Below are positions 6,935 to 60,647 of a stretch of 64,000 nucleotides of DNA, in pieces. The DNA is from a virus, in the IMG/VR virus record IMGVR_UViG_3300023196_003770, positions 1 through 64,000 of that record; one strand, given 5' to 3'. The notes under the pieces were generated by a model. That model was not told where the DNA came from, ran no database searches, and saw only the letters and a program-made list of their open reading frames with translations. Made by a program: the position numbers and the translations under genes. Positions within the stretch are counted from its first letter, which is position 1, and every line of letters begins with the position of its first letter.

Positions 6935-7591
6935 ATGAAAATATTAAAACTAATAAACCAACATATTCCGATCTGGTCAATGCTTTGTGGAGATCATGCA
7001 TTGAAAGTAGTAGTTAACAATATTAATCCAAAACTGCTATCTGAACCCAATTTCCTTGATCCTTTAGAGAATAAATTAAGATTAGATATTTTTAGAGATC
7101 GTCGTGAATGGATATGGGCTTCAATGAAAGATAATGTAGCTTTTGCTCTGGTAGAAATTGACATTGAAGAACTAATGACATTCCACACATGTTTCTCAAA
7201 AGTTTCTTTTAAAGAATTTGTTGAAGAATATGCTAAAGCACATAAAAAGGGTAAAGGGTTTATTATAAAAAGACCGAGACACGGATCCGATTTAGAAAAA
7301 GGAAAAGAATCAGTTGAATATGTTTGCAAAGAACTTGCAACCAAAATAGAGGATGCATACTCCAAAATGACATTTGTATTAAAACCAAAAAATGTTCTTG
7401 ATCCTTATTTCACTAATGAAAAAAACATATACGTAGCCAGCAATCGTAGCTTAATAATGAAATGTAAAGACACTTCGAATATAAGAATAATGGATGCCAC
7501 TCATCGTTTAACTGCATATGCGGTTAGCAAAGCGAATAAAAAAAGCCCCCTCCCAAATAAACTTTATGCGTTCTATTGGGAAGAGGCTTGA
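6935..7591 (+). CDS. hypothetical protein, 218 aa
   Basis: One of two plus-strand genes. The outermost start is a TTG at 6926; the ATG at 6935 (MKILKLINQHIPIW) is more likely. Not recognised: mixed alpha/beta, soluble, Lys-rich, with DRREWIWASMKDN and a basic segment KGKGFIIKRPRHGSD. The last about 50 nt double as the tmRNA terminator read on the other strand, so the C-terminus (SKANKKSPLPNKLYAFYWEEA) is constrained by two functions. It ends 3 bp before the tmRNA 3' end. Opposite orientation hints at separate acquisition. Confidence 0.6.
   Translation: MKILKLINQHIPIWSMLCGDHALKVVVNNINPKLLSEPNFLDPLENKLRLDIFRDRREWIWASMKDNVAFALVEIDIEELMTFHTCFSKVSFKEFVEEYAKAHKKGKGFIIKRPRHGSDLEKGKESVEYVCKELATKIEDAYSKMTFVLKPKNVLDPYFTNEKNIYVASNRSLIMKCKDTSNIRIMDATHRLTAYAVSKANKKSPLPNKLYAFYWEEA
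7538..7589 (-). terminator. Rho-independent terminator of the tmRNA
   Basis: On the minus strand, just past the tmRNA 3' end, AAGCCTCTTCCCAA pairs with TTGGGAGGGGGCTT (minor mismatch) across a loop of about 24 nt and runs into TTTTTTT. It lies wholly within the 3' end of the convergent plus-strand gene. Confidence 0.8.
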
Positions 7592-7593
7592 AT

Positions 7594-7951
7594 TGGAGAT
7601 AGGCAGACTCGAACTGCCGTCCACAAGAGATCCAAATAATTTGTTGTATCACATAGCATAGCTCTTTTATAAATTACCCGCCATAAACTTAACCAAAGAG
7701 CAGATTGTATACGGCATGGTTTCAAAATTTAAGTCTTGGCAGTAGAAACTATCCCTACAAGACCGAGTTTGTTTAATATCAACCTAAAAGATCCTCAAAC
7801 GGCGTATCTTTTAAATTGCTAGCTGCGTTCAGGCTGCGAGAGCGTAAGAGTTATCGTTTGCACTTACTATTGTTTACGGTTTTAAACGGTCATAAACGCC
7901 CGTTGCTATGCAAATTATTCTTCCTTCCCGTGTCGAAACCAATTTATCCCC
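7594..7951 (-). ncRNA. ssrA: transfer-messenger RNA (tmRNA), one-piece
   Basis: A 358-nt tmRNA. The 5' end reads GGGGATAAATTGGTTTCGAC, the conserved tmRNA opening. The 3' end has a T arm (GGCAG-TTCGAGT-CTGCC) and TATCTCC, which pairs with the 5' GGGGATA to close the acceptor. The tag reading frame at 7829-7861 gives ANDNSYALAA then TGA. Its resume codon GCA is at nt 91, almost the same place as in E. coli (tag ANDENYALAA). tmRNA rescues stalled ribosomes with SmpB and tags the product for ClpXP-type proteases. No smpB is visible here, so host SmpB is presumably used. CCA is not encoded. It has its own downstream terminator. Confidence 0.95.
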
Positions 7952-52091: not shown

Positions 52092-52931
52092 CTATATACT
52101 AAACTCGTCGCTGTTCTTTACATCACGATAATGTCTCTTAAGAGAACTCAATACAATTGATAGCTGTTTAGAACTAAGAGTTGTGAGTTCCCTTACATAG
52201 AGTAATATCGCCCTCTTACTTAAAAGATCAACGTCTTCAAGATTACTAATAAGAACTTTAATAGCATTAACTACCATTTTTTCATTATCTGTCTTAGTCT
52301 TGTCCTCTATAGCAGCAACAAGCTTAATCAGATAATCGTGAGTATTGACTATAGTATAAAGTTCTTCAAATCCAGGTTGAAACTGTTGCGTCTCAATCTG
52401 TTCAACGTCTTCCTTAGATAAATTATCACGATCATCTATTGAGATATAATTCTGAACACGTTTGATGTTCTGTTTACTCTTAATAGTTAACCAGTTTTTA
52501 GCTACAACGTTGAAATAAGAAAATGCTTTACTACCCTTTTCAGCGTTAAACTTCTCTACAGCAGAATATAGGAACTGTAAACACTCATGCTTAAGGTCTT
52601 GCTTACTCTCATATATTACTGAAAAGCCATAGACGTTTATCAGATTTTCTACAAGGCTATCAAAGGCAGGAAGTATCTCCTTTACGTAAACCTTTTTCTT
52701 TTTTTCCGTATCGGCTTCCTGCTGATAGATTATAATTTGTTCTTGTGTTTTTTCTGTAAAATAATTGATAAGGGTAGGTTGATCGCCTTTACGTTTAATC
52801 TTCCTTCTGCCTTTTTTTTCTAAAATACCAATTGGAGGTATGGAATCGGTACGTGGAGCTACCGTTAATAAGTCACCAATATCATTAATTTCTGCTGATA
52901 TATCAACGGTTGAAGTCTTGCGTATTCTCAT
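52092..52931 (-). CDS. late transcription sigma factor (gp55-like)
   Basis: A 279-residue protein resembling T4 gp55 and related sigma factors. The centre (residues about 110-165: HECLQFLYSAVEKFNAEKGSKAFSYFNVVAKNWLTIKSKQNIKR) matches the sigma region 2 pattern, where AFSYF...A.N contacts the -10 element and the core clamp. The C-terminal helices (IKVLISNLEDVDLLSKRAILLYVREL) may serve as region 4-like or core contact. The N-terminus is Lys-rich. It would direct host RNA polymerase to late phage promoters, likely needed for the baseplate genes just downstream. Confidence 0.75.
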   Translation of the reverse strand: MRIRKTSTVDISAEINDIGDLLTVAPRTDSIPPIGILEKKGRRKIKRKGDQPTLINYFTEKTQEQIIIYQQEADTEKKKKVYVKEILPAFDSLVENLINVYGFSVIYESKQDLKHECLQFLYSAVEKFNAEKGSKAFSYFNVVAKNWLTIKSKQNIKRVQNYISIDDRDNLSKEDVEQIETQQFQPGFEELYTIVNTHDYLIKLVAAIEDKTKTDNEKMVVNAIKVLISNLEDVDLLSKRAILLYVRELTTLSSKQLSIVLSSLKRHYRDVKNSDEFSI

Positions 52932-53310
52932 CTAACATTTCTCCTCGGAGTATACGCTCTCTCATTATTCTCTCTTGCAATTCACGAATATTAGGTTCTT
53001 CTTCAACAACCATGTTATATTTTTGTTTGCTACGATCAACAAATTTAAGAGCCACACGATTAACAGCCATTTTATTTTTCTTAATCTCTGCCATGGCTTC
53101 ATGAACAACCATTTGAACTTCTTTGCTATCAAAGAATAATTTCATTTCTAAAATTTTATCTAATGCCTGTTCGGTATCCTCTAATGCCTCTACAGCATCA
53201 GAAAAATCATCTTCAATAATCATGATAATCCGTGCAAAACGAATTAGATAAAATAATGATGAAATTAGTAGAAATAATAATACCAGAGTTATTAATCCAA
53301 ATATAATCAT
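52903..53310 (-). CDS. membrane-anchored coiled-coil protein, 135 aa
   Basis: An N-terminal transmembrane segment (MIIFGLITLVLLFLLISSLFYLIRF) is followed by a long charged helix (DDFSDAVEALEDTEQALDKILEM, KNKMAVNRVALKFVDRS, RELQERIMRERILRGEM). It overlaps the sigma gene by 29 bp at its 3' end and the glycosyltransferase gene by 4 bp at its start (ATGA). No family is recognised. Similar membrane-anchored helical proteins of phages could be spanins, antiholins or membrane tethers; nothing decides. Confidence 0.65.
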   Translation of the reverse strand: MIIFGLITLVLLFLLISSLFYLIRFARIIMIIEDDFSDAVEALEDTEQALDKILEMKLFFDSKEVQMVVHEAMAEIKKNKMAVNRVALKFVDRSKQKYNMVVEEEPNIRELQERIMRERILRGEMLDENTQDFNR

Positions 53311-54485
53311 CCTAATACTTCCTTAAGTGCTTCTGTGTATTGAGCAGCTACTGCCTCATAAGAATATTCCTTCTTAAGAGTTGCAGCTAAATCTTTAGCC
53401 CATTGTTGAGGCATCTGTGGGCTTTCTACAAACTTCTTTACACGATGCTTGAAATCGTCTTCTTTAACATTTGCCCACTTGGCTTTTTCCATCCAAATCT
53501 GATTATCAACTCGGGTTTGATGAATTTGCTCTAAACGATAGTCAAGCTTTACATACTTTCCTTTACCAAGGAACTCTGTATGGGCACTCCAGCCCGTAGC
53601 AATAACTGGAAGACCAGAAGCTGCTGCTTCAAGGATTGGAAGACCAAAACCTTCACCACGAGTTGGAGCAACAAGAGCCTTAATCTTTGGATGCCTATAA
53701 AGAGCAGCTACTTCATTATCACTCATATCTCCATGAAGAAGATAGAACTTTGGAAACTCTGCGCCTTTCTTAATCTCCATCGTAAGTTGCGCCAATAGAT
53801 TTGTAGTTCTAAGACGATCAACTACTGTATGACGCCCAGTATTTGTCTTTATTACAACGCCAACGTCTGGATTATCTTTGAACTGTTCTGCTAACCACTT
53901 AACCGTATAAAATATATTCTTACGATCATTTTCTGGATTATTACCAGTTATCTGTCCAAATACAAGAAAGTTAAAATCTGTCTTGAGTTCTAAATCAATT
54001 TCTGATAGCTCAGGTGTAGCTACAGCATCAATAAATGCTTCTGGAATAACAACAACCTTGGTCTTTACTTCGCCGCTATTTGCAAATACTTCCTTAACAA
54101 ACTCTGAAGGAACAATTATAAGATCCATGCGATTAATAGCTGATATCCATGCAGGATTACATACGTCGCCTTCAACACCTGCCGTTATTCCAACGTTATA
54201 GTCTGCAAGAAAAGGGTTCCATTCATTTGGTAACTGTAGCTGTAAAGAAACGTCATATTTATCTCTCTTGCCAGCAGCTTGCAATAAACGACCAATCAAT
54301 CCATCTTGAGCATATGCATCAACGTGCCAAGGAGTAGCGCCCCATGGAAGAGGCTCTGTAACAATATCAATATTTCCAGTCTTATCTGCCAAATCAAATA
54401 GCCAACGAGCTATCTGACGAGCATGAACTCCATAACCGCTAGCCGTTAATACTGGACCACGAAGAATTACTGTTTTCTTTGTCAT
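53307..54485 (-). CDS. GT-B glycosyltransferase (family 4-like)
   Basis: The ATG at 54485 (MTKKTVILRGPVLTASGYG) follows AAGGGAT; a further-upstream start in the same frame is not favoured. 392 residues. The N-terminal domain has GPVLTASGYGVHARQIARWL, a glycine-loop start common to GT4-like enzymes and similar to the SPSGVGVQARF of the neighbouring gene. The C-terminal domain has FLVFGQITGNNPENDRKN, then APTRGEGFGLPILEAAASGLPVIATGWSAHTEF, the E-x7-E nucleotide-sugar binding motif. It transfers a sugar from a nucleotide donor in the cytoplasm. Target is probably phage DNA, virion protein or host glycan. Confidence 0.85.
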   Translation of the reverse strand: MTKKTVILRGPVLTASGYGVHARQIARWLFDLADKTGNIDIVTEPLPWGATPWHVDAYAQDGLIGRLLQAAGKRDKYDVSLQLQLPNEWNPFLADYNVGITAGVEGDVCNPAWISAINRMDLIIVPSEFVKEVFANSGEVKTKVVVIPEAFIDAVATPELSEIDLELKTDFNFLVFGQITGNNPENDRKNIFYTVKWLAEQFKDNPDVGVVIKTNTGRHTVVDRLRTTNLLAQLTMEIKKGAEFPKFYLLHGDMSDNEVAALYRHPKIKALVAPTRGEGFGLPILEAAASGLPVIATGWSAHTEFLGKGKYVKLDYRLEQIHQTRVDNQIWMEKAKWANVKEDDFKHRVKKFVESPQMPQQWAKDLAATLKKEYSYEAVAAQYTEALKEVLG

Positions 54486-54499
54486 TGCTATATCCCTTA

Positions 54500-56104
54500 T
54501 CACTTAATATTGATCAACTTGTTAGCAGGAGCTGGATTAATACCGGTAAGCTTCCAACGCTTAAGAGCACCGGTTTCTTTCCTTGTCTTATAATCTTCTA
54601 CACACTTTAACATCGTATCATGCCAGCTTTGAACCATATTTTCATACTTGAACTCATGGTCAAGATATTCAGCAGCCTTCTCTCTAAACTCTGCCTTCTT
54701 CTCAGGCGTCCAACCATATACTTCCATAAAAGCATCTGCCACTTGACGTTCCGTGCAATAGTCTTCAAAGATATAAGGAACCATTTGTGAACCAACCAAT
54801 GAACGCTTTGCTGGTTCAATAGCAACGCCGTATTGATAACCATTGCGATAATCTTCTGCTTGACGTGTTTCGCCACCGGTCTTAAGAGCAATGATTGGCT
54901 TGCCAACCTGTAATGAAATAAGAGTAGAAAGACCAAACCCTTCATTCTTAGCTATGTTAACACAAACGTCTGCAAGGTTATGCATAACATTCATTTGTTC
55001 AAATTGAAGACGATCATTTGAGAACCAAACGTTATCGTTTAATCCAAGCATATCAGACACGGCAAGAAGATTTGGACCTTCCATATCATTTGGATCTGTA
55101 TGCATGATTAGTACTGCATTACGGTGTCCTTCTTTCTTCTCAAGGTCATCAAGAAAGGTCTTCCAACCAAGAAGAACATCGTTTGGCATTTTGCGTGTAG
55201 CATTACGATTAATCCAAAGAGCCTTAAACCAGTCAGCTTTTGCGCCAAAGTTCTGTTGCTTAAGATGATTAATTTGTTCTTCTGGAAGAGGGTTATAAAC
55301 CTGCTTTGGGAATGTATGGGGAATGTAGTTAGTCTTCTCTGGGAAATGAGGTTTAACCATTTCAAACGTTTTATATGAAAGGCAATTGATTAGATCGGTG
55401 CTTTCATACCATGGGAAGTTAAATGCTGGATATGGATCATTATCCCAAACGTGCCAATAGACGATTGGGCATACTTGATGGATTTCATCTTCCATTTCCC
55501 AAAGCCACGTAAACTGACGAGGATCTGTAAACAAGAAAATTGCGTCTGGTTGTTCTGTAATAAGAAGCTGACGAATGAGTTCCTTGCTTCCAAAGCCGTC
55601 TACAGGCTTTACAATGAAGTCAGGATTGACAGCTATCGTATCATACTTTGCGTGCTTCATAGCGCCGCCTAAGCAGCGGAATGACCATTGACCGGTCTTG
55701 ATAAGACCATCAATCAGGAAACGTGCTTGGACGCCTACACCCGAGGGAGCTACATAACTTATATTATTTCTAATATAACCAGACTATATCATCATATGAT
55801 TATCATATGCTGGGCGCTGTCGGATCATTACCATAAGCTTTTAAGCTTTTAGGTTAACCGTAGTCGTTGAACCTTTCTCACCGTTTCCGGACAGAGACTT
55901 GGCTGCTGATTGTCCAATCATCATATTTTTTAAACATTCACGTTTGTCGTTTCCAACTGCGTTGTAGTATATGATACTTAAGGAGTTTCCAGCAATTCAC
56001 CCAGTTTTACATCCACTAACTCAACTCAATGGATGATCACTTAACGTGATTACTTTATATTTCTTTTTGAAATTGAATGCGGTCAAGAAATCATTATCAC
56101 TCAT
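54500..56104 (-). CDS. GT-B glycosyltransferase gene split by a group I intron
   Basis: Exon 1 is 56029-56104 and exon 2 is 54500-55749; the join gives 441 residues. Exon 1 encodes 25 residues from MSDNDFLTAFNFKKKYKVIT to LSDHP plus the first base of the next codon, and exon 2 continues SPSGVGVQARFLIDGLIKTG, restoring the Gly-rich nucleotide-sugar loop in frame. The rest of the protein has the two-domain GT-B build with NEGFGLSTLISLQVGKPIIALKTGGE as donor-binding region. Without splicing, exon 1 stops at TGA two codons into the intron. A Shine-Dalgarno AAAGGAT precedes exon 1. A second, truncated copy of exon 1 lies upstream at 56998-57063. Confidence 0.85.
55750..56028 (-). ncRNA. group I self-splicing intron, 279 nt
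   Basis: All four conserved group I elements occur in order on the minus strand: P AATTGCTGGAAA (55986-55997), Q AATCAGCAGCCAAG (55898-55911), R GGTTCAACGACTA (55861-55873) and S GATGATATAGTCT (55781-55793). P1 is CATCCATTGA/TTAGTGGATG, with the splice-site U pairing G as expected; exon 1 ends in that U and the intron ends in G. A 3-bp P10 (GAG with exon 2 CTC) is possible. No ORF lies inside. Splicing restores the reading frame, which is independent support for the boundaries. Confidence 0.9.
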
Positions 56105-56969
56105 GTATAAAATCCTTTATTTTTTTTAGCATATCTTCTTTATTTTTTTGCATTTCATAAGCCCATACTATCATGATAGAATAACCTGCTTCTTTTATTA
56201 TGTTTTTTCTTTTTTCATCTGATAACCATATATCTTCAGCAGTTTTGTTTTTTACTTTATGAAAGTAATTTGCCGGATATAACTTTGGGTTTGCGTGCCA
56301 ATAATCGCCATGATATTCAATTATCTTATTTGAGTCTGGTAAAAGTATATCTGCAAAATATTTTACTTCTTTTATTGGTAGTTTTACTTCCAATTCTGCT
56401 GTTGAATTAATGCTTTGAACATAATCAAAAAGCTCTTGTTGTGGCTTTGATATTTTTCTGCGTTGAGCCAACATATATGCATTAGTGACTCCATATTTTT
56501 TACTCAAAGACGTTTTCTGTTTATCTTTTTGAGCTTTTGTAAGGCAGCGCCCAAACATGGGATTATTAGTTCCGGAAAATAAAACTTTCATATATTCTTT
56601 TTTACATTCCGAGCTGCATACTCTATGCTTTGCGGTTTTTTTATATCTCGGCGGATAATACATCTCAGTATCACAACAAAAACATTTAGCTACAAAACCA
56701 GATTTATCATTAGTATGAGATGTCCATTTGCTATAGGCTCCAATTAGAACATAGTGTTTTGAAGCACATGAACGATTACAAAAATTTCCTTTTTTATATC
56801 TAATACGTTCAAAGCTTTTTTTACAACATAGACAAGTTCTTGTTTCTAATATATTTTTATTACTTTTTTCTCTTCTGTTTTTACGATGTTTTACGAGACA
56901 GGCACGAGAACAAGTCTTTTTTTGAGGATTTCCTTCAAATTCTTTACGGCAGATATTACATGTATTCAT
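56097..56969 (-). CDS. EDxHD/Vsr-like homing endonuclease with zinc fingers and NUMOD
   Basis: A 290-residue free-standing homing endonuclease. N-terminal zinc finger pairs (CNICRKEF, KKTCSRAC; CLCCKKSF, FCNRSC; CFCCDTEM, CSSEC) are followed by a NUMOD3-type segment (GTNNPMFGRCLTKAQKDKQKTSLS, about residue 140) that binds DNA. The catalytic domain resembles Vsr/EDxHD nucleases such as I-Bth0305I: LPDSNKIIEYHGDYWHANP about residue 215, then IWLSDEKRKNIIKEAGYSIMIVWAYE. It ends 7 bp inside the start of glycosyltransferase exon 1 and 68 bp from the intron. It is flanked on both sides by copies of the glycosyltransferase 5' end, which points to its insertion there. Confidence 0.85.
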   Translation of the reverse strand: MNTCNICRKEFEGNPQKKTCSRACLVKHRKNRREKSNKNILETRTCLCCKKSFERIRYKKGNFCNRSCASKHYVLIGAYSKWTSHTNDKSGFVAKCFCCDTEMYYPPRYKKTAKHRVCSSECKKEYMKVLFSGTNNPMFGRCLTKAQKDKQKTSLSKKYGVTNAYMLAQRRKISKPQQELFDYVQSINSTAELEVKLPIKEVKYFADILLPDSNKIIEYHGDYWHANPKLYPANYFHKVKNKTAEDIWLSDEKRKNIIKEAGYSIMIVWAYEMQKNKEDMLKKIKDFIHE

Positions 56970-56997
56970 ACACGATAAATATATGTGGAGTAAGAGT

Positions 56998-57063
56998 TCA
57001 CGTGATTACCTTATACTTCTTCTTAAAATTAAAAGGGGTGAGAAATGTGTTCTCTTCTGACAT
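56998..57063 (-). pseudogene. truncated second copy of glycosyltransferase exon 1
   Basis: The frame reads MSEENTFLTP-FNFKKKYKVIT then TGA. The real exon 1 has FLTAFNFKKKYKVIT followed by LSDHP. The match covers about 20 codons; differences are mostly synonymous third positions (TTT/TTC, AAG/AAA), so the copies diverged separately under selection. The sequence similarity stops at the ACGT of the last shared codons. A good TAGGAG site precedes the ATG. It now acts, at most, as a 21-residue leader peptide just before the endonuclease gene. Confidence 0.8.
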
Positions 57064-57128
57064 TACTATCTCCTACTATGATGATGATATTTTCACTAAT
57101 AATGACGCATATGTTTAGAATTACAATA

Positions 57129-58112
57129 TCAAAGATTTAATGCTCTATCATAATCTGCGTCATACATCATATGTGCTAAATCTTTAAATGTGGTCTTCGG
57201 TTTCCAGCCCAATATTCTTTGAGCTTTGGCACTATCACCAAGTAATATTGGAACCTCATGGGGACGATATAAACGTGCATCAATCTTAAGATGCTCTTCA
57301 ATATTTAAACCGGCGTGTTCAAATACAACTTCAAGAAATTCTTTAACCGTATGCGTCTCGCCAGTTGATATAACAAAATCATCACCTTTTGGTTGCTGAA
57401 GCATTAACCACATTGCCTCAACATAATCTCCAGCAAATCCCCAATCTCTCTTTGCTTCAAGATTTCCAAGATACAACGTTTCCTGTTTCCCAAGCTTTAT
57501 ATTAGCTGCTGCAAGAGTAATCTTGCGAGTAACGAACGTCTCACCTCTTACTGGACTTTCGTGATTAAAAAGAATGCCCGAAGAGATATGAAGCCCATAA
57601 CCTTCACGATAGTTGCGGCAAAGATTATGTGCATATAATTTAGCAGCCGCATAAGGTGAAGCCGGTGTCATGCGAGTTTCTTCATTTTGAGGAACTTGTA
57701 TATTGTCACCATACATCTCTGATGATGATGCTTGATAGAACTTAGCTTCTGGACAGATTAGCCTATAAGCCTCTAGAAGCTTCAATACGCCGCCACCTAC
57801 TACGTCCAGGGTTTCCTCTGGAACCTCGAAAGAAACCCGCACGTGGCTCTGTGCAGCCAGGTTATATATCTCGTCTGGTTTATACTTGGCGAGAAGAGAA
57901 TAGATGGAACTTGAATCGGTCATATTTCCATATTCAAGTTTAAAATTTGGATGACTGAATATGTTAATATCATCAAGACGATCTGTTGTTATAAGAGAAG
58001 TTCGCCGCTTCATTCCTATAACACGATAACCTTTATCAAGAAGAAACTTTGCTAAATAAGAGCCATCCTGACCTGTTACGCCAGTTATAAACGCAGTCTT
58101 TTGTGTTGACAT
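57129..58112 (-). CDS. gmd: GDP-mannose 4,6-dehydratase
   Basis: Converts GDP-D-mannose to GDP-4-keto-6-deoxymannose. It is a 327-residue extended short-chain dehydrogenase: FITGVTGQDGSYLAKFLLDKGY binds NADP at the start, MKRRTS recalls the Gmd-specific YGVKRRSS loop, LAAQSHVRVSFE and QASSSEMYG are catalytic-site segments, and SPYAAAKLYAH supplies the YxxxK pair. The closing part has REVPILLGDSAKAQRILGWKPKT. The stop lies 66 bp from the truncated exon copy; its start overlaps by one base with the stop of the GDP-fucose synthase gene (TAATG). Together with that enzyme it makes GDP-L-fucose. Confidence 0.9.
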   Translation of the reverse strand: MSTQKTAFITGVTGQDGSYLAKFLLDKGYRVIGMKRRTSLITTDRLDDINIFSHPNFKLEYGNMTDSSSIYSLLAKYKPDEIYNLAAQSHVRVSFEVPEETLDVVGGGVLKLLEAYRLICPEAKFYQASSSEMYGDNIQVPQNEETRMTPASPYAAAKLYAHNLCRNYREGYGLHISSGILFNHESPVRGETFVTRKITLAAANIKLGKQETLYLGNLEAKRDWGFAGDYVEAMWLMLQQPKGDDFVISTGETHTVKEFLEVVFEHAGLNIEEHLKIDARLYRPHEVPILLGDSAKAQRILGWKPKTTFKDLAHMMYDADYDRALNL

Positions 58113-59086
58113 TATACTCCTCTTACATTTGGATATGCCACTTTAAACCAATCACAGGTCTTCTTTAAAGCAATATCAAATGGAGTATAGTCTTCTAGCC
58201 GCCAACTAGTTTTTTCTAATAATCTTTTATTTGAAGATGGTTTTCGAAACTGTCCAGATGGCTTATCTGTATTAAAAACAAGATCCCCCTCATATTCTAA
58301 ATATTCTAAGAGTTTCTTGGCAACTGAACCTATTGAGTGTTCTTCTGTATTGCCAATATTAAGAGGTTGATCTTCGTTATATTCTTCTGAAACCTTAACG
58401 AGAATACGGGCTATATCACCAGCATATGTAAACTCTCTTAATGGACGACCATCTCCCCATATTTCTACCGTAGGTTTATTATTAAGTTTAGCTTCCCATA
58501 TCTTTCTCATTAGAGCTGGGATAACGTGCCCATCCTCTAAATGGAAGTTATCATATTCTCCAAATAGATTATTTGGAATGACAGTGATATAGTTCACCCC
58601 ATACTGCTTACGATAAGCCCTTGTTTGAACGTCTAGCATCCTTTTAGCGTAAGCATAGCCAAAGTTGCTATCGTGCGGTGGTCCCATGTGAAGCTGGTCT
58701 TCTGTAAGCGGATAGGAGACATATGGAGCATCTGGATAAACACAGGTTGATAATACGGAAACTACTTTAGGAACAGAATATTTCAAACATGCATATAAAA
58801 CGTTTGTATTAATGGCAATATTTTCGTCATAAAAACTACCAACAAAATCTGTATTTGCTTTAACACCGCCGACTCGTGCAGCTAAGTGAAAGACGCATTT
58901 AATTTTGCTATATAATCCTTGTCCATCAGCCGCTTCATGCAATTGAAAATATCTTTCAGTTTCTTCTTTATATAAGAAATTCACTTCTTTTCTTGTAGGG
59001 GAAATGACTTGAGCGTTTGAATTGCTAAGATGGGAAATTAAAGCTTGTCCGACCAAACCAGCGCCCCCGGTAATTAAAATAGTCAT
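58112..59086 (-). CDS. fcl: GDP-L-fucose synthase
   Basis: An epimerase-reductase that turns GDP-4-keto-6-deoxymannose into GDP-L-fucose. ILITGGAGLVGQALISHL gives the NADP Rossmann motif, and FHLAARVGGVKANT, SVLSTCVYPD, NFGYAYAKRMLDVQ (YxxxK) and TVIPNNLFGEYDNFH match Fcl/WcaG active-site segments. WGDGRPLREFTYAGDIA is the conserved substrate-binding region. 324 residues is close to the usual length. It follows the pathway order and is coupled to gmd. The upstream small ORF ends 2 bp before its start. Confidence 0.9.
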   Translation of the reverse strand: MTILITGGAGLVGQALISHLSNSNAQVISPTRKEVNFLYKEETERYFQLHEAADGQGLYSKIKCVFHLAARVGGVKANTDFVGSFYDENIAINTNVLYACLKYSVPKVVSVLSTCVYPDAPYVSYPLTEDQLHMGPPHDSNFGYAYAKRMLDVQTRAYRKQYGVNYITVIPNNLFGEYDNFHLEDGHVIPALMRKIWEAKLNNKPTVEIWGDGRPLREFTYAGDIARILVKVSEEYNEDQPLNIGNTEEHSIGSVAKKLLEYLEYEGDLVFNTDKPSGQFRKPSSNKRLLEKTSWRLEDYTPFDIALKKTCDWFKVAYPNVRGV

Positions 59087-59088
59087 AA

Positions 59089-59214
59089 TTATTCCAAGAT
59101 GATGAAAGCGAAATGTTTTTTCTCAGTGGTATCAATTCCTGTTTCTTTAACTTTATAATTGTTTTCTATCCAACGATAAACATTATAATTAATTGCCCAT
59201 ATGCCAAAAGTCAT
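59089..59214 (-). CDS. small hypothetical protein, 41 aa
   Basis: Begins MTFGIWAINYNVYRWIENNYKVKETG and ends HFAFIILE. A strong Shine-Dalgarno GGAGG with a 7-nt spacer precedes the ATG, and the TAA stops 2 bp before the GDP-fucose synthase start, so it is likely translated in the same run. The protein has no known motif; an aromatic-rich N-terminal half could be membrane-peripheral. Function unknown. Confidence 0.5.
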   Translation of the reverse strand: MTFGIWAINYNVYRWIENNYKVKETGIDTTEKKHFAFIILE

Positions 59215-59236
59215 GTTAATACCTCCTGTAATCCTC

Positions 59237-59620
59237 TCATATTGAATTCAAGTAAGTTTGATAGTCCCTGATATAATCATTCGGATCATATTCTTCCGAA
59301 GATAATGCTAGTAGTGTAGTATTTTTTTCTAGAAATGTTAAAGTAGTCCAGGTCATTCGTTTTTCAAACACATACATTCCTTCTTTAAGGATAAAACTCT
59401 GTGTTTCTTTGCCGTCAAACAAATCGATTTTTATTCCGCCTGATAAACAAAATAATACTTGATCTGTTGCTTTATGGGCATGTTGTCCTCTAACATCATT
59501 AATTGGGACATCTTTAACATAAAACATTCTTTTAGGGACAAAAGTAAGATTGTGAAAATCAAAAGGAAACAATGCTCCTCTTGCATCACGATTACTTTTT
59601 AGTTCAGATAATATATTCAT
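59237..59620 (-). CDS. FdtA/WxcM-like sugar 3,4-ketoisomerase
   Basis: A 127-residue cupin of the FdtA/QdtA type, which isomerises dTDP-4-keto-6-deoxyglucose to the 3-keto form. Recognisable segments are RGALFPFDFHNLTFVPKRMFYVKDVP, then DVRGQHAHKATDQVLFCLSGGIKIDL, where the two His sit in the active pocket. The full-length single domain matches the family. It overlaps the aminotransferase gene by 17 bp, the typical fdtA-fdtB pairing. Substrate choice is by family only; the dTDP-glucose precursor enzymes are not in this window. Confidence 0.8.
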   Translation of the reverse strand: MNILSELKSNRDARGALFPFDFHNLTFVPKRMFYVKDVPINDVRGQHAHKATDQVLFCLSGGIKIDLFDGKETQSFILKEGMYVFEKRMTWTTLTFLEKNTTLLALSSEEYDPNDYIRDYQTYLNSI

Positions 59621-60647
59621 TGTTTCTAACTGAGAAAAGAAATTCTTCTACTCTCTGTATATCTGATTCACTTAAAAATGGATGACAAGGTATCGATATA
59701 ATTTTATCGGACACTCTCACTCCAGTTATGTTAGCATTTATACCATGCAGAGCCGGAATATCTGTGATATGGTTTTGATAATGAATCATATGAGGAATTT
59801 CTCGCTCATTCATTTCTTTTATAACCGATGCTCTGTCTTCAAACATTGATGTAAACAAATGATAAACAGACTTTGTGTTAACTTTGTATCCTTGAATTAT
59901 TTTCTTGTATCTAGAAGCTATTTCTACTCTACGATCATTTAAGGATTCAAAATGATTTAGCTTTGCCAACACAACAGACGACTGAAACTCGTCCATTCTG
60001 CTATTGATTCCAACAAATTCTATGTTGCCTTTGTTCTGACCATAGAATCTGAACTTTTTATAAAACTCAGACTGTTCTTTATCGTTCAAACATATCATCC
60101 CACCATCGCCCATGGAACCAAGAGGCTTTGTTGGATAAAAACTGAAAACAGAATAGTCTCCGACCTTACCAGAGCCAGAGCCAGTTGATTGAGCGCAATC
60201 TTCTATTAAGATATGATTGTTATCTTTACAGTATCTTTTGATACTCTCAATGTCGCAGTTGTTTCCAAATAAATGAACCGGTATAACTATTCCATTTTTA
60301 ACTTCCGGAAGTTTACTTGGATCAATTGTCATTGATGCATCAACATCTACATAATGAATATTGTCCGTAAGATTTCGACACGCCACAGATGTTGGATATG
60401 CTCCAAAGTTTGGCAGTATTACTGGCATACCAGGCTTAATTAAAGTTTTTACTAACATCATTATGGCATCAGTGCAATTTTTAACACCAACACCATAAGA
60501 CATTCCTATTCTTTTCGAAAACTCGAATTCTAGTCTTTCAAGCTGCGGTCCTAAAAGGTAAAACCCGGCTTCATACACTTTAGCTAATTCAGAATTAATT
60601 TGTTCCTTATATAGCTCATTTTCAGTTTTGAGATCCGTAAATTTCAT
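59604..60647 (-). CDS. DegT/DnrJ/EryC1-family sugar aminotransferase (FdtB-like)
   Basis: A PLP enzyme that aminates 3-keto-6-deoxy sugar nucleotides. 347 residues. VKNCTDAIMMLVK is the cofactor phosphate region, VIPVHLFGNNCDIESIKRYCKDNNHILIEDCAQSTG contains the conserved Asp for the PLP ring, and SFYPTKPLGSMGDGGMI holds the catalytic Lys. Next comes FRFYGQNKGNIEFVGINSRMDEFQSSVVLAKL, a family signature. Together with FdtA it makes dTDP-3-amino-3,6-dideoxy sugar (Fuc3N or Qui3N). Overlaps the exostosin-like gene by 4 bp (ATGA). Confidence 0.85.
   Translation of the reverse strand: MKFTDLKTENELYKEQINSELAKVYEAGFYLLGPQLERLEFEFSKRIGMSYGVGVKNCTDAIMMLVKTLIKPGMPVILPNFGAYPTSVACRNLTDNIHYVDVDASMTIDPSKLPEVKNGIVIPVHLFGNNCDIESIKRYCKDNNHILIEDCAQSTGSGSGKVGDYSVFSFYPTKPLGSMGDGGMICLNDKEQSEFYKKFRFYGQNKGNIEFVGINSRMDEFQSSVVLAKLNHFESLNDRRVEIASRYKKIIQGYKVNTKSVYHLFTSMFEDRASVIKEMNEREIPHMIHYQNHITDIPALHGINANITGVRVSDKIISIPCHPFLSESDIQRVEEFLFSVRNNEYII

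Follow-up and report, generated by a model that had tools for sequence, protein, structure and literature searches.

The glycosyltransferase (GT) gene on the minus strand of the window, the 64,000-nucleotide stretch of DNA analyzed here, very probably contains a composite homing unit, in which collaborative homing was combined with exon replacement. The initial annotation had described a phage glycosyltransferase gene split by a group I intron. The intron itself was borne out by a match to the Rfam model RF00028, by about 87 exact empty sites and by seven other contigs that carry the same intron at this site, although its 3′ boundary had been placed 3 nt off. Two features had been overlooked, namely a homing endonuclease gene (HEG) directly upstream and a displaced second copy of the 5′ exon. 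The association of an ORF-less intron with a HEG outside it and a replaced 5′ exon had gone unnoticed and is more unusual than the intron.

The 3′ exon of the GT gene (54500-55752, minus strand) has 96% amino acid identity to the intronless locus L001, and the predicted spliced protein is 442 aa long. In agreement with the annotated gene identity, the protein matched Pfam PF00534 (Glycos_transf_1, GT-B glycosyltransferase) at 27.5 bits, above the gathering cut-off of 26.4. The intact ORF and a dN/dS of about 0.05 ruled out a pseudogene. The insertion point lies in a conserved motif, [SA]D[HM]xxxSGV[GA], as had been noted, and a glycosyltransferase does appear to be an unusual intron host; a full-text literature search gave no described case, which is weak evidence. 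The gene lies within a sugar gene cluster (53307-60647, minus strand) that includes a second glycosyltransferase, two nucleotide-sugar epimerase/dehydratase-type genes (PHROG 540) and an aminotransferase-like ORF, the last called from sequence alone. The window also carries a phage-borne tmRNA gene (7591-7951, minus strand) with the tag ANDNSYALAA, genes for tRNA-Asn, tRNA-Ala and tRNA-Glu, and a 279-aa ORF (52092-52931, minus strand) that by eye resembles a phage late sigma factor and had no PHROG match.

The upstream endonuclease gene and the two 5′ exons

The HEG (56097-56969, minus strand; 290 aa) ends in an overlap with the ATG of the 5′ exon in use. Its protein has a Cys-rich N-terminal part and a C-terminal nuclease domain with a predicted Vsr fold (residues about 171-290). 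A phmmer comparison with PDB sequences gave only chance matches, so a fold comparison was needed to classify the protein. The AlphaFold2 model, whose quality was good for the C-terminal domain only (mean pLDDT 73), matched Vsr (1cw0) with a Z of 12.1 and I-Bth0305I (3r3p) with a Z of 11.6. The sequence match to Vsr was weak (E 0.023), and the NCBIfam vsr model gave 19 bits, far under its cut-off of 98. Residues D207, E218 and H225 were invariant among seven homologs. By the modelled fold of its catalytic domain, this putative nuclease is a Vsr-like homing endonuclease, and its dN/dS against L008 was 0.21. Matches to OspA were rejected as low-complexity. Assignment to the HNH family was also rejected; it rests on the PHROG name 'HNH endonuclease' alone, for residues 1-186 (the N-terminal two thirds), and the catalytic domain is Vsr-like. 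The F-CphI type, with its Endo VII motif (PMC6083498), was set aside because the fold match is to Vsr.

The alignments indicate that the 5′ exon in use (56029-56104, minus strand; MSDNDFLTAFNFKKKYKVITLSDHP plus 1 nt) is a foreign replacement copy. This copy (MSDNDFLTAFNF...) is identical to copy 2 of L008 at 72 of 76 nt, whereas comparison with the resident alleles gave only 56-60 identities in 81-82 aligned columns. An SD-like AAAGGA for this exon sits within the 3′ end of the HEG. The remnant of the original 5′ exon (56998-57063, minus strand; MSEENTFLTPFNFKKKYKVIT followed by a TGA stop) lies upstream of the HEG and retains its own ATG and Shine-Dalgarno sequence (TAGGAGATAGTAATG). Between this displaced exon and the HEG is a linker (56970-57000, minus strand; TGAACTCTTACTCCACATATATTTATC...), the left end of the inserted unit, in which 26 of 30 ungapped positions are conserved with L008. 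The first part of the linker resembles inverted GVGVQ codons of the 3′ exon (TGAACTCYTACTCC against TGAACACCTACTCC in several empty alleles, 14/16). This match lies at the same place in three linkers (window, L008 and L162) and was equalled in 1 of 120 shuffles, which is moderate evidence that the linker may contain an inverted GVGVQ copy.

Displaced exons were found upstream of the HEG in the window, L008, L162 and L163. That of L008 differs from that of the window but ends at the same codon, and those of L162 and L163 extend 5-6 nt past the intron site, which places the left boundary at the presumed cut site. We also considered a functional role for the displaced exon, as a leader or regulator that acts on the HEG by translational coupling; it would then have been retained for that role and not be a fossil or a homology arm. 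The retained Shine-Dalgarno sequence and ATG are compatible with such a role, as is the in-frame stop (TGA) with which it ends a short distance ahead of the HEG in the window, L008 and L162. We nevertheless regard it as rather unlikely, because the displaced exon matches the recipient's own 5′ exon, represented by the 5′ end of intronless L001, at 59 of 61 nt, as displacement predicts, and because L189 has no displaced exon upstream of its HEG. The case of L189 also indicates that the arrangement can do without the exon remnant.

Joint movement and distribution among relatives

Between the window and L008, nucleotide identity was 95% in the intron, 95% in the in-use 5′ exon, 88.5% in the HEG and 73% in the displaced exon. 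Within the 3′ exon, the first approximately 16 nt (55737-55752) agree with the element donor (15/16 against L008), and the remainder is resident (79% over 1,237 nt). The dS between the two loci was 0.37 for the HEG and 1.63 for the GT. In the GT tree, intron-bearing rows were scattered among empty ones, the window grouped with intronless L001 (96/94), and the starred branches forced six intron changes for six intron-bearing rows. In the HEG tree, the window paired with L008 (99/99). The contrasts in identity and dS and the conflict between the trees indicate that the HEG, the replacement 5′ exon and the intron were transferred jointly as a unit. The dS contrast and the tree led us to reject vertical descent of this unit.

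A search for relatives with the 3′ exon protein returned 79 loci, and a later search added more. About 87 homologous loci read through the intron site without an intron. Eight of the intronless loci from the first search were 90-95% identical over nearly the whole GT protein, and the closest intronless GTs were up to 96% identical to that of the window. The intron occurs at the same codon in eight contigs (window, L008, L011, L162, L163, L175, L189 and L196), and RF00028 matched in each of them except L175, which starts inside the intron. In the five loci examined closely, predicted splicing gives DHPLAP or DHPLCT ahead of SGVG; the splice points of L189 (DHPLSS) and L196 (DHPLST) were read by eye. 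A HEG or its remains lay immediately upstream in all seven testable intron-bearing contigs, with decay to a C-terminal fragment in L011 and an interrupted gene in L196, and upstream of 0 of the approximately 87 empty alleles in the main comparison set. The same HEG lineage was also present directly upstream of four intronless GTs (L185, L190, L191 and L193, the last apparently damaged), indicating that the nuclease is tied to the GT gene with or without the intron.

These four loci would fit a different reading, that the intron is a plain ORF-less one and the HEG an unrelated, free-standing gene with intronless homing that adjoins it by chance. We consider chance adjacency improbable, since it accounts neither for the 7/7 against 0 of about 87 distribution nor for the common history that the HEG, the foreign 5′ exon and the intron have in the window and L008. 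We give slightly less weight still to HEG turnover, in which the intron's own HEG was purged and a free-standing HEG arrived later. Phage introns often carry HEGs, and this alternative was raised for ICP1 (PMC10448857). However, the introns measured in five loci were 276-286 nt long with no HEG trace, and turnover is also at variance with the same HEG lineage adjoining the same gene with and without the intron.

An intron-pattern search of the genome contigs gave 67 introns, among which no GT or HEG match was seen. In L196 (1533-2687 and 3898-5631), intein-like sequence lies inside the same GT, after NISC, with apparently another in the gene just upstream, and three kinds of splicing/homing element are clustered at this GT locus. 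The viral record of L005, which has an empty GT site, carries another group I intron (L182, 1470-1666, minus strand; 66.9 bits) near an HNH-like ORF and an isocitrate lyase-like ORF.

Splice sites of the group I intron

The Rfam check proposed in the initial annotation was run with cmscan. RF00028 matched the minus strand at 85.3 bits (E 2.7e-20; cut-off 50), the covariance model was covered over its whole length (positions 1-253 of 253), and this was the sole RF00028 match within the 89-kb viral record (89,093 bases) that holds the window. The internal guide sequence (56010-56022, minus strand) consists of GAGUUA (56017-56022) and GUGGAUG (56010-56016) and pairs contiguously with the ligated exon ends CAUCCAU and UAGCUC. 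In P1, CAUCCAU at the end of the 5′ exon pairs with GUGGAUG over 7 bp, with the diagnostic U·G pair at the 5′ splice site that had already been recognized; in P10, UAGCUC at the start of the 3′ exon pairs with GAGUUA over 6 bp. Comparable P1 and P10 were found in 0 of 20,000 intron shuffles. With the guide sequence placed in this way, the intron spans 55753-56028 (minus strand; 276 nt) rather than 55750-56028 as annotated, with a first base U just past the P1 U·G pair and the true 3′ splice site after the last base, G55753.

The U·G pair in P1, the terminal G and P10, as in group I introns, are all present in the window. All three frames are closed in the 276 nt, so the intron lacks the internal HEG of mobile introns. 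The P1/P10 architecture is repeated in four further loci (L008, L011, L162 and L163); L162 and L163 carry CCG in place of CCA in the exon and GCGGAU in place of GUGGAUG in the guide, a compensating change. On these sequence features, the intron at 55753-56028 is real and complete. The predicted spliced RNA junction is CAUCCAU joined to UAGCUCCC, and splicing at 55753 is predicted to yield SDHPLAPSGVG, identical to intronless relatives. A simple intron at 55750-56028, ligating to SDHPSPSGVG, would keep the terminal G and the reading frame, as the initial annotation had found, but is most improbable, since its DHPSPSG falls one residue short of the DHPLAPSG of close intronless relatives, the 6-bp P10 is forfeited, and L008, L011, L162 and L163 are all predicted to splice at the equivalent of 55753.

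The proposed homing cycle and known systems

An ORF-less intron with a HEG outside but adjoining the intron-bearing gene, as seen here, is the layout of collaborative homing. In the composite unit, the endonuclease would cut alleles that lack the intron, at the site of intron insertion or close to it, a position taken from the boundaries only. Donor-templated repair would then copy the HEG, the replacement 5′ exon and the intron, but no more than about 16 nt of the 3′ exon. The intron would split the target and protect the donor, and splicing would restore the protein. In the four HEG-bearing GTs without an intron, protection must have another basis. A free-standing HEG risks being left behind because the cut site is away from its own gene (PMC2988022). 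Beyond the HEG, homology would be provided by the displaced exon, which could act as a left homology arm whenever the unit moves again and so keep a HEG outside the intron from being left behind.

The window and L008 have a common junction and their own displaced exons, which fits crossovers inside the displaced exon. The common junction may alternatively reflect a repeated microhomology event, which the data do not firmly separate from crossovers. T4 'one-sided' repair with microhomology junctions is a plausible origin of the unit. We propose tentatively, with a little less than even confidence, that the unit is self-renewing, in that the exon displaced by each recipient takes the role of left homology arm when the unit is next transferred; the evidence for this step comes from short sequences and from two related loci with one common junction. 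If so, an outside upstream endonuclease would be inherited as reliably as one inside the intron and, together with the HEG-bearing intronless relatives, would suggest a stepwise route to collaborative homing, the origin of such pairs being stated to be unclear (PMC10448857). In this one gene family, several states occur side by side: the gene is empty, has a HEG but no intron, has both, has both plus a displaced exon, or has an intron beside a decayed HEG. The locus may be a fossil form of how two-part mobile elements can move together.

Each ingredient of this arrangement is known: ORF-less introns occur with a HEG outside them, splicing elements of phages with Vsr-like HEGs, and replacement gene ends with endonuclease genes of fungal mitochondria (PMC3630166); the whole combination was not found in a literature search of limited scope. 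Collaborative homing, in which an outside HEG targets the intron site, was shown for F-CphI and the psbA intron of cyanophage S-PM2 (Zeng 2009, as described in PMC6083498) and proposed for terL of ICP1 (PMC10448857). As in S-PM2 psbA, T3/T7-like phages and ICP1 terL, an ORF-less group I intron here has an adjacent HEG outside, and as in ICP1 terL the HEG is next to the N-terminal exon (PMC10448857). Unlike F-CphI (Endo VII motif) and the ICP1 HEG (T5orf172), the nuclease here has a predicted Vsr fold (PMC6083498, PMC10448857). In contrast to both systems, the gene is a glycosyltransferase and the displaced resident 5′ exon survives; the available descriptions of S-PM2 and ICP1 (PMC6083498, PMC10448857) do not report a displaced exon. 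The locus resembles T4 td/I-TevI in RNA class, splice-site rules and short exon co-conversion, but differs in that the HEG is outside the intron.

The predicted Vsr-fold nuclease domain relates the HEG to I-Bth0305I and the EDxHD homing endonucleases. Vsr-like HEGs in L082, L083 and L084 overlap apparent split-intein halves at terminase-like and other phage genes ('fractured genes'), and HEG relatives in L083 and Aeromonas phage Aes508 are at split-intein genes. Unlike in those fractured genes, no split intein halves flank the HEG here. A 5′ exon copy that ends in a stop lies on one side and a group I intron on the other, RNA splicing would rejoin the gene, and the 5′ part is duplicated. A foreign gene end beside the HEG, with the native end displaced, is the arrangement of an mORF with a replacement terminus. 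In the fungal mitochondrial mORFs (Glomus atp6, atp9, cox2 and nad3; Allomyces atp6), as described in PMC3630166, an endonuclease gene likewise brings a foreign gene end and the native one is displaced nearby. Those mORFs involve the C-terminal end and LAGLIDADG or GIY-YIG enzymes, whereas the unit described here involves the N-terminal end, a Vsr-like enzyme, a group I intron and a phage. The locus also presents a phage gene with its 5′ end replaced by a homing unit, as known from fungal mitochondria (PMC3630166).
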